Part shown: positions 1,422 to 62,929 of the stretch, piece by piece | Numbering within the stretch: the first letter of the stretch is position 1 | How the letters are laid out: the number at the start of each line of letters is the position of its first letter | DNA from: Symbiodinium sp. CCMP2592 | Taxonomy: Eukaryota > Sar > Dinophyceae > Suessiales > Symbiodiniaceae | Direction: 5' to 3' | Assembly (NCBI GenBank): GCA_905221615.1 | Contig: CAJNDT010003224.1 | Location: 90,001-154,000, forward strand | DNA: 64,000 nucleotides | Program-made: the position numbers and the translations under genes | Notes under the pieces: generated by a model | Databases searched by the model: none | What the model saw: the letters and a program-made list of their open reading frames with translations, nothing else | What the model was told of the DNA's origin: nothing

Positions 1422-1581
1422 GTCATGCCCAAGCTGGTGGCGGAGACGCTGGACGGGACCAGCGTCATGAGGCCGGGGTATCACACCGGATGTATAATTG
1501 CAGCTGTGCTGTCACTGAAGCACGATGACAGGCCGAATGTCAGCAACAAAGAGGCGAACTCTTTTTTCGCACGCTTCTCAG
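1422..1581 (+). CDS. Exon of unknown-function gene (0.8-5.3 kb)
   Basis: The exon starts after an AG at 1420-1421 and reads VMPKLVAETLDGTSV, then RPGYHTGCIIAAVLSLK, and ends near FFARFSE. The 3' boundary is inferred. CTCAG plus GTGG..TGAAGG at 1577-1600 reappears at 1686-1707, just before the next exon, so one copy would be kept after splicing. No known domain is recognised. Reading past the putative donor quickly gives Ser/Thr/Cys-rich, non-protein-like sequence, which supports an exon end here. Confidence 0.5.
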
Positions 1582-1690
1582 AGTGGAACAATGAAGGACC
1601 CAGCAGTTGTGACACTGACACGTCGAGTTGCTCAACATGTCAGCTTGTTTTGAGAAGCCTCTGGACGTCACCACATGACGTGTGGCTCAG

Positions 1691-60800: not shown

Positions 60801-62929
60801 GCAAGCCCAGGCCATGAAAGGTCGCAATGCCCCCCATATCCCGATATTCGTTCAACCTTTAATTCGAGCTGCCCAACAACCCTGGAATCACCCAAAAAAT
60901 ATCCTGAAGCCTGAAGCTAAAACCCCGTGGTGGCCGAGGTCCCAACGCCCCGCAGGCAGTCATCGATGCCTTTGAGAAGTGCAAGGATGCCAGCGGTGGC
61001 TCGTTTTCTGCTCAAAACCCTAAATAACCCTAAACCCTAAAGCCTAACCTCCCTTCATAACAACCCGCTAAATAACCCTAAACCCTAAATCCTAACCTCC
61101 CTTCATAACAACCCTAAATAACCCTAAACCCTAAAGCCTAACCTCCCTTCATAACAGGTTGTGCCGATCTGGGTTAGGTTGGGTTTCAAGCTTCGGTTCA
61201 GACTCTGAGGCAAGACCAACAGGGCCAAGTTGCAGAAGTTGTTTACTCAGTACATGGATGCCGGGGAGGATTGGGGCGAGTGTGAGCTCGTCTTGACATC
61301 CCAGCAGACCAATTCGAATGTGCAGAGAAACCAGTACAGGCTCATGACTCGCAAGGACCGACATTGACCTTTTTTTGCATGTTAACCAGTCGACCAGTCC
61401 TAAATGAGGCCTGGAACCCTAAAGCCCCAACCCTGAAACCTCAACCCCCAACTATGTGGCACTTTCTTTCAGGATCTCCTCGACAAATACAAGAACGAAA
61501 CGATCGTCGACAGCATTATTCAGCGCAAGGAATCCTGATTAGAGGGCCTGTTTGAGGTGGTGTATTTTTTGCTTAGTTAATGTATAATGCAATTTAGTGG
61601 TTCATACTTCTTGGTCCTATCGATCGATACAACACAATAGCAGGAGCAAGCTGGATTGGGCCAGGACAATCCTGACGCGCCAGGCGTCGAGGCCGGGGTT
61701 CAGTTGGGAGAACTAGTTGCTAACCCCCAAAGCCAAAACCCTAAACCCTCTTAATATCTTAGAATATGTATAGTGCCGGTGTATAGTGCCGGGTGAAAGA
61801 TCTTCTTTTAGCCCTGTTTCCAGGAGCTTCGGTGCTGGAGGTGCTGGGATGCAAGCACCGAGATGGATGAGGATGTCAATCGGCAAAGTGCTACACGGGA
61901 GCGAGCTGCTGGAGCCGGGCCAGCCTCGTCGGGCTTGGCAGCCGCCGGCGGTGCCGATGGCGGTGCAGGACCTCCGGGTGAAAACAAGGAGACGAAGGAG
62001 AAGAAAGAGAAGAAGGAGAAGAAGGAGCCGAAAAAAAAGACTGTGGAACAGCAAGCAAAGTCAGTGCTTCGTACGCATTATGATGCATCGTTTAAAACCG
62101 TTGTAATATATATTGTATGATGAACTATGTACGTACTGGTTGGATTGACTAAACATCACTACCAGGCTATGGCCCTGGTCAACGGCAATCTTCTCGAGAT
62201 CCAAAGCTTTGAGTACAAGCTCAAGAAGAACAACGTGTGGCTTGGCATAAGCCTGGAATCATTTTTTAGACTTCATCAGCTAGATAAGATCATCAATATT
62301 CTTGGTTACAACACCCAATATCTCAGGGATGCACACCTGGTGATGGCACTCGTGCAGAGCATGAACTCTCAGGCGGAGACACTCCGTGAGGCGCGAGGAC
62401 GCCTGGAGGCCAGAGGCTAATGCGAAATCTTATAATTTAATCCTAAACCCTACACCCCTAAACCCTACACCCCTAAACCCTAAACCCTAAAATGGTGGAC
62501 ACCTCGACTGAAGCCCGGTCCAGCTATACTCCGAAAGCCTGATCAATCCGCTGCCCAATCACCCGGAAACCAAAAGCCAGCAAACATCAACTCGGTACAC
62601 ACCCCTAAACCTCAACCTGTACTGCTGCACGACAACCCGTAAGCTTTATCCTTTAACTACATCGTCGTCAAACTACTACACGATTAAATGCCCAGCCCGA
62701 ACCACAAACCCAATAATCTGAAGCCCAGCTAATATATAATACCCTTTCCAAGGCCGCTTTGGCATGCGGTGCTGCCTCGGAAGACCTCGAGCCCCTCGTG
62801 TATCAGCTTAATTTTTCCAATGATACCTACAAGGAGGCAAGCAAGCATGTACGCCTCCACCTTCAGGCACCGAAACCCAAAGGGACCTCGAAGGCAAAGG
62901 CCAAGGCTAAGACCCCTGCTAAGAAGTAG
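57789..62929 (+). CDS. Nearly complete gene of about 16 exons with an internal 15-residue repeat (span)
   Basis: Start ATG at 57789 with an in-frame TAG upstream (57774-57776); stop TAG at 62927-62929. Exons in order: 57.79, 57.905-58.19, 58.27, 58.56, 59.22-60.12 (repeat exon), 60.17, 60.33, 60.59, 60.96, 61.21, 61.47, 61.64, 61.86, 62.17, 62.34, 62.75 kb. The protein has an Ala/Lys-rich N-terminus, eleven PTKQVPxSVPQETAD repeats, coiled-coil pieces, a DAGEDWGECEL / IIQRKES segment and an AKAKAKTPAKK tail. That segment resembles a large multicopy family I associate with Symbiodinium genomes (memory, not verified). Many exons are 20-90 bases. Several introns use GC or GA donors. Function unknown; the basic ends suggest nucleic-acid association. 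Confidence 0.65.
57905..58195 (+). CDS. Second exon, Lys/Ser/Thr-rich
   Basis: After CTGCAG it reads VMQQAMERAQARKALLKTTV, then KGPPVARRATGKKTVEATP and TPNPKRSVASEDTPC, ending near TPKKSL. Disordered and basic with many Ser/Thr-Pro sites, so probably phosphorylated. A TAG follows at 58196-58198, so the donor lies just before it. Confidence 0.6.
58273..58364 (+). CDS. Third exon
   Basis: After AATTCAG it reads DLSMGATPPPREVARGCSSS then TLGATPAHVMQ and ends GATGCAG|GCC, a GC donor. Pro/Ser-rich linker. Confidence 0.5.
58558..58578 (+). CDS. Mini-exon, about 7 codons
   Basis: After CACACAG it reads DDEVEED. The next codons ELMAELED resemble ELMIGDPGD at the start of the following exon (GAGCTTATGG / GAGCTGATGA), so the splice probably keeps one ELM, with a GA donor. 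The intron contains the ACTAGT satellite. Confidence 0.45.
58610..58965. repeat. ACTAGTAGT satellite, 350 bp
   Basis: Built from TAGTAGTAC nonamers and AGT/ACT triplets. ACTAGT palindromes recur throughout, so the tract is self-complementary and could form hairpins on either strand. It lies in an intron of the 57.8-62.9 kb gene. Leu/Val-only ORFs across it on both strands are artefacts. Confidence 0.85.
59216..60124 (+). CDS. Main exon with eleven 15-16-residue repeats
   Basis: After TCGACAG it reads ELMIGDPGDKEAMEGLEELL, then from about 59,335 to 59,850 eleven units of the form P-T/S/V-K-Q-V-P-x-S-V-P-Q-E-T-A-D, then MPPEVKAWLTSMMTQQG and ACQAMAKQQAEADEQ. The repeats are Pro/Thr-rich and likely extended. 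Differences among units are mostly single bases, so the array expanded recently or is homogenised. Minus-strand frames across the array are open because of the period and are not genes. Confidence 0.7.
60172..60219 (+). CDS. Small coiled-coil exon
   Basis: After ATCTCCAG it reads ERAKVAAEKQAAEREK and ends GAGAAG|GTTAAG with a GT donor. It joins in phase to ANLQILKSM. Confidence 0.55.
60333..60423 (+). CDS. Small exon
   Basis: After TCTGCAG it reads ANLQILKSMMPEEHYKELEA then EDWLIPLSIE and ends AAA|GTAAAG, a good GT donor. Splicing to the next exon gives SIENQEDEKKKERR in phase. TCCATTATCGATCGAAAG at its end recurs with 15 of 18 matches just before the next exon. Confidence 0.65.
60591..60660 (+). 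CDS. Small basic exon
   Basis: After ATCGACAG it reads QEDEKKKERRNAYMRFHRM then RSS. Basic helix, preceded by the second copy of the 18-bp repeat at 60573-60590. Confidence 0.6.
60956..60995 (+). CDS. Mini-exon
   Basis: After CCGCAG it reads AVIDAFEKCKDAS and ends GCCAGCG|GTGGCT (GT donor). Joins in phase to GKTNRAKLQKLF. Confidence 0.5.
61016..61157. repeat. Three copies of a telomere-like plus CTAACCTCCCTTC module
   Basis: CCTAACCTCCCTTCATAACA occurs at about 61043, 61091 and 61137, each preceded by CCCTAAACCCTAAA-type words. Each copy resembles a branch point, pyrimidine tract and acceptor region. Only the last copy continues to AG. It lies in the intron before the exon at 61210. Confidence 0.7.
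61210..61350 (+). CDS. Exon with DAGEDWGECEL motif
   Basis: After CTCTGAG it reads KTNRAKLQKLFTQYMDAGED then WGECELVLTSQQTNSNVQR and NQYRLMTRK. The L-F-x-x-(W/Y)-M-x-A-G-x-D-W arrangement is the most family-like part of the protein. The end near CGCAAG|GACC may be a GA donor. Confidence 0.6.
61473..61529 (+). CDS. Small exon
   Basis: After CTTTCAG it reads DLLDKYKNETIVDSIIQRK. It continues the same domain (acidic helix ending in IIQRK). The end resembles the next exon start (GCAAG..CTG.ATT). Confidence 0.6.
61644..61692 (+). CDS. Small exon
   Basis: After ATAGCAG it reads EQAGLGQDNPDAPGVE. Ending at GTCGAG|GCCGGG (GC donor) it joins in phase to MDEDVNRQ. Confidence 0.5.
61863..62062 (+). 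CDS. Exon, Gly/Ala then Lys/Glu-rich
   Basis: It reads MDEDVNRQSATRERAAGAGP, then GLAAAGGADGGAGPPGENK and KEKKEKKEKKEPKKKTVEQQ. Disordered Gly/Ala stretch followed by a strongly charged helix. Ends near AGCAAAG|TCAG. Confidence 0.6.
62166..62225 (+). CDS. Small exon
   Basis: After TACCAG it reads AMALVNGNLLEIQSFEYKLK. The donor appears to be GA (CTCAA|GAAGAA), joining in phase to DAHLVMALVQ. Confidence 0.5.
62337..62408 (+). CDS. Small coiled-coil exon
   Basis: After ATCTCAG it reads DAHLVMALVQSMNSQAETLR then EARGRLE, ending CTGGAG|GCCAGA (GC donor). Joins to AALACGAASED. Confidence 0.55.
62753..62929 (+). CDS. Last exon with basic tail
   Basis: After TCCAAG it reads AALACGAASEDLEPLVYQLN then FSNDTYKEASKHVRLHLQA and SKAKAKAKTPAKK, stop TAG. 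The Lys/Ala/Pro tail recalls linker-histone-like ends. Confidence 0.65.
   Translation, partial: AALACGAASEDLEPLVYQLNFSNDTYKEASKHVRLHLQAPKPKGTSKAKAKAKTPAKK

Follow-up and report, generated by a model that had tools for sequence, protein, structure and literature searches.

Most of the introns analyzed here are Introner-type DNA elements or descendants of such elements, a reading to which we give a probability of roughly 0.75. They come from an ion-channel-like gene in a 64,000-nucleotide stretch of one contig (hereafter the window, Table 1), from relatives of that gene, and from dynein and GTPase genes of the same genome. An earlier note on the window had claimed that its introns are bracketed, near-universally, by 12–26-bp copies of the exon edge. 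Our data define something far shorter: a repeat that is specific to each locus and spans no more than about four bases, followed directly, in the channel genes, by a locus-specific inverted repeat. The genome is that of a dinoflagellate: it holds 429 exact copies of the dinoflagellate spliced leader (the motif read backward gives none), and its introns begin mostly with GC, GT or GA.

Introns were placed by protein homology and not by means of repeats, and that they are spliced is presumed from sequence. The total of 162 homology-defined introns comprises 13 in the window channel gene, 16 in its two relatives, 127 in dynein genes and six in a GTPase paralogue. The window channel gene was aligned, with a purpose-written script for spliced alignment, to a single-exon 503-residue open reading frame of the same genome (C77:46594-48102), with which it shares 159 of 303 aligned residues; one intron was re-placed by hand to give GT..AG. 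We take the gene to encode a cation channel on account of its pore-region motifs. Its two relatives yielded 18 introns, of which two, produced by a mis-split mini-exon, were removed. The dynein set stems from 44 matches to AAA domains: 20 loci were fetched and 17 aligned to a four-paralogue profile (to which one of the 17, L075, itself belonged), giving 154 introns. Among 132 of these the starts are GC in 68, GT in 37 and GA in 23, and the removal of five with other dinucleotides left the 127. The six GTPase introns were placed by eye against intronless paralogues. Two of the dynein loci (L065 and L079) are densely packed with very short introns, down to 47–60 bp.

The repeat is seen when the two edges of each intron are compared in register and the result is set against shuffled pairs. 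At intron positions +1 to +3 the dyneins match at 141 of 381 positions (109.4 in shuffled pairs, p<0.0002) and the channel genes at 35 of 87 (25.2 shuffled, p = 0.013); in neither set is there anything at +4 to +9 or at −6 to −3. GA donors behave accordingly: in 15 of 23 the next exon also begins with GA. Similarity of donor and acceptor reaching past the AG|G context, as the earlier note had it, thus holds for three positions and, in most introns, for none further in. Immediately beyond lies a second signal. In the 29 channel introns the sequence from +4 onward is more complementary to the 3′ end of the same intron than to the ends of other introns (108 versus 81.9, p<0.0002, in a count that omits the first two positions), whereas offsets of 2, 3, 5 and 6 give no significant complementarity. 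As a group these introns read GNNNCTYGG...CYRAG|G.

It could be argued that the match at +1 to +3 is the product of splice-site selection and no duplication scar at all. Exons that follow introns and donors both favor G[TCA], the G at the exon start is close to fixation (0.95 and 0.93), and the match dies away over three bases, much as selection of this kind would have it. Such preferences survive shuffling, yet the match is locus-specific, and in the channel genes an inverted repeat, likewise locus-specific, begins exactly at +4. We therefore consider selection alone quite unlikely.

Such a pattern would be expected where a target of 4 bp was duplicated around a sequence with inverted repeats at its ends. 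In this scheme an element whose termini are short inverted repeats (approximately CTYGG...CYRAG) would insert at a target GNNN and duplicate its four bases. The left GNNN copy would then serve as the 5′ splice site, whether GT, GC or GA, and the right end of the element would supply the 3′ AG; the downstream exon would open with the right GNNN copy, and the messenger RNA (mRNA) would keep a single copy. That elements founded the introns, and that a transposase moved them, is what we infer. Insertion with target duplication had already been put forward in the earlier note, and as a kind of process it probably applies; the general duplication is one of about 4 bp (G plus three) and not of 12–26 bp.

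Several observations weigh against an Introner-type origin. The inverted repeat is a mere trend in the dyneins (189 versus 174.4 in the 68 introns of at least 80 bp, p = 0.094), whose intron ends show no clear CTYGG consensus. No intact element with the ends of the channel introns was isolated, and the ends of a live-looking family of elements with a copy in the window (CTTACC...GGTAAG, see below) are unlike CTYGG...CYRAG. Two matters of procedure belong here as well: 22 of the 154 dynein introns were removed before counting (21 for poor junctions, from a list drawn up by hand, and one because a flank was short), and the aligner prefers G[TCA]..AG when placements tie.

The view of the earlier note – that 12–26-bp copies of the exon edge generally bracket the introns, as relics of an insertion with long target duplication or of a tandem duplication – is very improbable in the light of the homology-defined introns. 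Exon-edge copies scoring 12 or more occur in three of the 162. Two of these, the window intron at 14165 and a dynein intron in which 27 bp of the acceptor edge recur, stand against an expectation of 0.00; the third is a GTPase intron that carries TGGGAGGAGCTC over both splice sites. In-register comparison of the dyneins gave no ungapped score as high as 9 among the 127 introns (0.2 expected), and gapped comparison of intron start with exon start gave z values of 0.98 and −0.04 against shuffled pairs. The same gapped test does support the view in the window channel gene, with p = 0.00025, weakening to p = 0.036 once the two pairs listed there by the earlier note are taken out. The paralogues of the gene, however, give p = 0.83, and gene and paralogues combined p = 0.0185. 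Slight excesses also appear when gapped copies of the exon edge are sought anywhere within the 162 introns (at scores of at least 10, 3 versus 1.33 and 5 versus 1.50), and when lag shifts of up to 6 are allowed in ungapped comparison of the dyneins (8 versus 2.5 at scores of at least 9 with a mild penalty), the best cases lying in very short introns. A further dynein control, intron start against intron end, was set aside, since in short introns the compared windows overlap and so inflate the result. In most introns, then, long similarity does not exceed that of shuffled donor–acceptor pairs, the very comparison that the earlier note had named as its check. Long duplications are a minority: three of 162 homology-defined introns, together with two of 30 copies of the transposable element described below.

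The earlier note rested on twelve repeat pairs. For each, the best ungapped match nearby was compared with those in three Markov-simulated versions of the window, with lags of 40–500. Two stand well above chance: 5815/5883, identical at 22 of 23 bases, and 20781/20900, identical at all 26. With 23 of 30 bases, 14165/14324 is borderline by its letters alone: in the window about one pair would be expected to reach this score by chance. The other nine are at or under chance level: 11222/11694, 48547/48598 and 60407/60573 score at a level where 23–53 chance pairs are expected, and 12740/13214, 15754/16204, 50241/50357, 1577/1686, 1828/1926 and 3240/3349 reach an ungapped score of 6 at best. Local direct repeats are in genuine excess in this DNA (33 isolated pairs scoring at least 16 in 217 kb versus 5.5 expected, short tandem duplications included) and therefore some will turn up in any repeat hunt. 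A codon-bias scan gave no coding signal at most of the listed pairs, although the null used for it was noisy and such a scan misses short exons, and a Pfam search with five joined candidate peptides returned merely a weak hint of ankyrin at 48547 (E 0.15).

Five of the twelve pairs (14165, 12740, 11222, 15754 and 1828) could be compared with homologues. Spliced alignment to the intronless paralogue places true intron edges at 14165/14324 and at 12740/13214. The first is secure: the peptide joined over the pair finds uninterrupted homologues in the same genome, the best of them being the single-exon reading frame used as reference (a search of PDB with this peptide gave only two matches, at E 1.6–1.7). 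The second lies on true edges, but its match reaches a score of 9 only once a gap is allowed. The remaining three are contradicted. At 11222/11694, where one copy was to be kept and the other spliced out, the intronless paralogue retains both segments (GKIVFSDIKAFESLPHKLLRRLQEEVG), and therefore ALKH and ALKQ both remain in the mRNA. The 16204 copy of 15754/16204, far from marking an edge, is internal to a 905-bp intron. At 1828/1926 the intron is real and common to a paralogue, yet both copies of GACGAG are exonic. The argument was circular: repeats had served to place the introns that they were then found to bracket. Overall the twelve pairs are a mixture, mostly of chance matches or misplaced introns, with a transposable element at 20781 and telomere-like inserts at 5815 and 14165.

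The pair at 20781/20900 flanks a miniature inverted-repeat transposable element (MITE), as judged by terminal inverted repeats, a short duplication of fixed size, high copy number and no coding capacity. Its 25-base end occurs exactly 4,865 times genome-wide, each copy potentially contributing two ends, and the reversed control not once. The 30 best-matching copies, that of the window included, are all 91 bp in length and 19 of them show an exact 4-bp duplication; the family is live-looking and its ends finish in AG, a point in favor of an Introner-type origin of the introns. Long flanking repeats accompany two of the 30: 28 bp with one mismatch in the window and 35 bp with three mismatches at L042. 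The flank in the window could be a pre-existing 24-bp tandem repeat that the element entered with an ordinary 4-bp duplication, an account that the L042 copy does not fit.

Different inserts are found at the other two sites. The insert of the intron at 14165 is 83% telomere-like, against a window background of 14%. It lies between exon copies identical at 23 of 30 bases, and paralogues without the insert have the length of one copy. An equally good placement of this intron (14181-14339) gives GA..AG, with the repeat in register and GAAA on both sides. The 23–30-bp duplications here and at 5815 would more probably come from the repair of staggered breaks. Telomere-like (TTTAGGG) islands are plentiful, 189 in 290 kb as compared with 0–14 for six permuted heptamers, and at a score of 10 direct repeats flank them more often than they flank random segments (14 of 179 versus 142 of 5,000, p = 0.0009). 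Shuffled flanks make the excess larger (14 versus 0.83), the random segments being the fairer control.

These observations bear on the idea that a minority of introns arose where telomere-like DNA was captured at staggered breaks, within 20–30-bp duplications that hold both splice sites. Against it stand the single proved intron, the lack of a significant island excess over random segments at scores of 14 or more (5 of 179 versus 71 of 5,000, p = 0.12), and the fact that introns as a whole are no richer in such DNA than the window (0.16–0.18 versus 0.14); telomere-like content was also rejected as a mark of introns. We regard the idea as possible, if rather unlikely. A broader version, in which such captures at breaks in exons made introns besides those made by Introners, the 14165 intron being one such birth, and in which the same repair lies behind the long duplications of the two MITE copies and the insert at 5815, is unlikely. 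One proved intron hints at a second route and is insufficient to claim it.

Short repeats at dinoflagellate intron boundaries are not new. Mendez and colleagues reportedly described repeated boundaries of 2–9 bp in 2015, and the introns analyzed here are alike in having a few identical bases on both sides with the splice sites at the matching place in each; repeats of 12–26 bp would exceed that range and are unsupported here. The closest anatomical counterpart is provided by the Introners of Symbiodinium microadriaticum, for which the pertinent part of Gozashti et al. (2022; PMC9860276) gives a 4-bp target duplication, terminal inverted repeats, a 3′ splice site within the element and a 5′ splice site from the duplication. 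Duplication size, inverted ends and the origin of both splice sites agree; unlike those Introners, the introns of our set have decayed and could be traced to no intact parent element, and the likeness described is one of anatomy. Recently active Introners are recorded for four of five dinoflagellates in a portion of a further report (PMC11453091). The introner elements of Amoebophrya, as the relevant section of Farhat et al. (2021; PMC7789003) presents them, have boundary direct repeats of 3–5 nt and inverted repeats at the intron ends, resembling the ends seen here, but their inverted repeats measure 8–20 nt and their splice motifs are highly varied whereas ours are G[TCA]..AG. The 14165 intron shares with Daphnia introns, born at staggered double-strand breaks with 4–12-bp repeats according to part of PMC4202315, the duplication of an exon edge at the opposite end of the intron; it differs in its repeat of about 30 bp and its telomere-like insert. 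In mammals, interstitial telomeric insertions at breaks were single-step events, some of which duplicated the target (4.6% in rodents, 16% in primates), and the portion of PMC2246262 concerned does not present them as a source of introns; the repeats here, in contrast, are degenerate, and we read them as a possible source of introns. Finally, Rogers and Bendich (2025; PMC11782384) claim that direct repeats of 4–30 bp mark the borders, or their close vicinity, in 213 of 213 introns of all classes, whereas with shuffled-pair controls we find none past about four bases in most introns.

Table 1. Position and strand of the features discussed.
Feature	Position	Strand	Remarks
Window	G000:C3224:90001-154000		from a 1.098-Gb assembly of 5,383 contigs
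Multi-copy-family gene	1296-5330	+	72 genome matches
Intron of multi-copy family, in gene at 1686-2720	1836..1925 (edges approximate)	+	shared with paralogue at C5197; GACGAG copies exonic
Pair of 23-bp direct repeats (5815-5837, 5883-5905) enclosing 45-bp insert	5815..5905	.	insert 93% telomere-like
Ion-channel-like gene, at least 14 exons, 13 introns	10685..16800 (upper limit approximate)	-	spliced alignment to C77 paralogue
True intron behind 11222/11694	11242..11680	-	AAG|GTTGCG ... CTGCAG|GTGCGG, re-placed by hand
GA..AG intron behind 12740/13214	12768..13234	-	gapped match, score 9
Intron with introner-type ends (example)	13310..13523	-	GCTC-CTTGG ... GGCCGAG|G
Intron bracketed by direct repeat 14165-14194 / 14324-14353 (23/30)	14191..14355	-	GC..AG as aligned
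True 905-bp intron containing the 16204 copy	15785..16689	-	spliced alignment
Left flanking direct repeat of MITE, 28 bp, 1 mismatch	20781..20808	.	second copy 20900-20927; ends in 4-bp TTAT
MITE, 91 bp, long terminal inverted repeats CTTACCTTTGGTTAGTAGGGAATGG	20809..20899	.	sequence copies genome-wide
Single-exon GTPase gene, 695 residues	41465-43549	-	MMR_HSR1 above cut-off

Among the reading frames of the window the GTPase is the sole Pfam family above cut-off, two sets of frames having given nothing, and scans for Rfam families and transfer RNAs were empty. A neighboring copy of the GTPase gene is 85% identical and intron-rich relatives lie elsewhere in the genome. The closest copy of the multi-copy-family gene (on C1155) is 87% identical and has in-frame stops. 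Long direct-repeat pairs outside the list of twelve are present at 52519-52725 (44 bp, 119-bp insert) and 56436-56854 (63 bp, 293-bp insert). A CCT-like gene has three GC-AG introns with, by eye, few bases common at their edges; a 2.96-Mb contig (C5051) carries three single-exon Cpn60 genes and is possibly bacterial DNA in the assembly.

The birth of introns is seldom visible. With an intronless paralogue and intron-rich relatives in one genome, filled sites can be set beside the uninterrupted gene, and a caution follows for annotation: intron calling that is guided by repeats produces the very support that it then cites. Should the telomere-like route prove true, it would amount to a second, repair-based source of introns. 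As to the majority, decayed introns are still legible by their four-base duplication and inverted ends.

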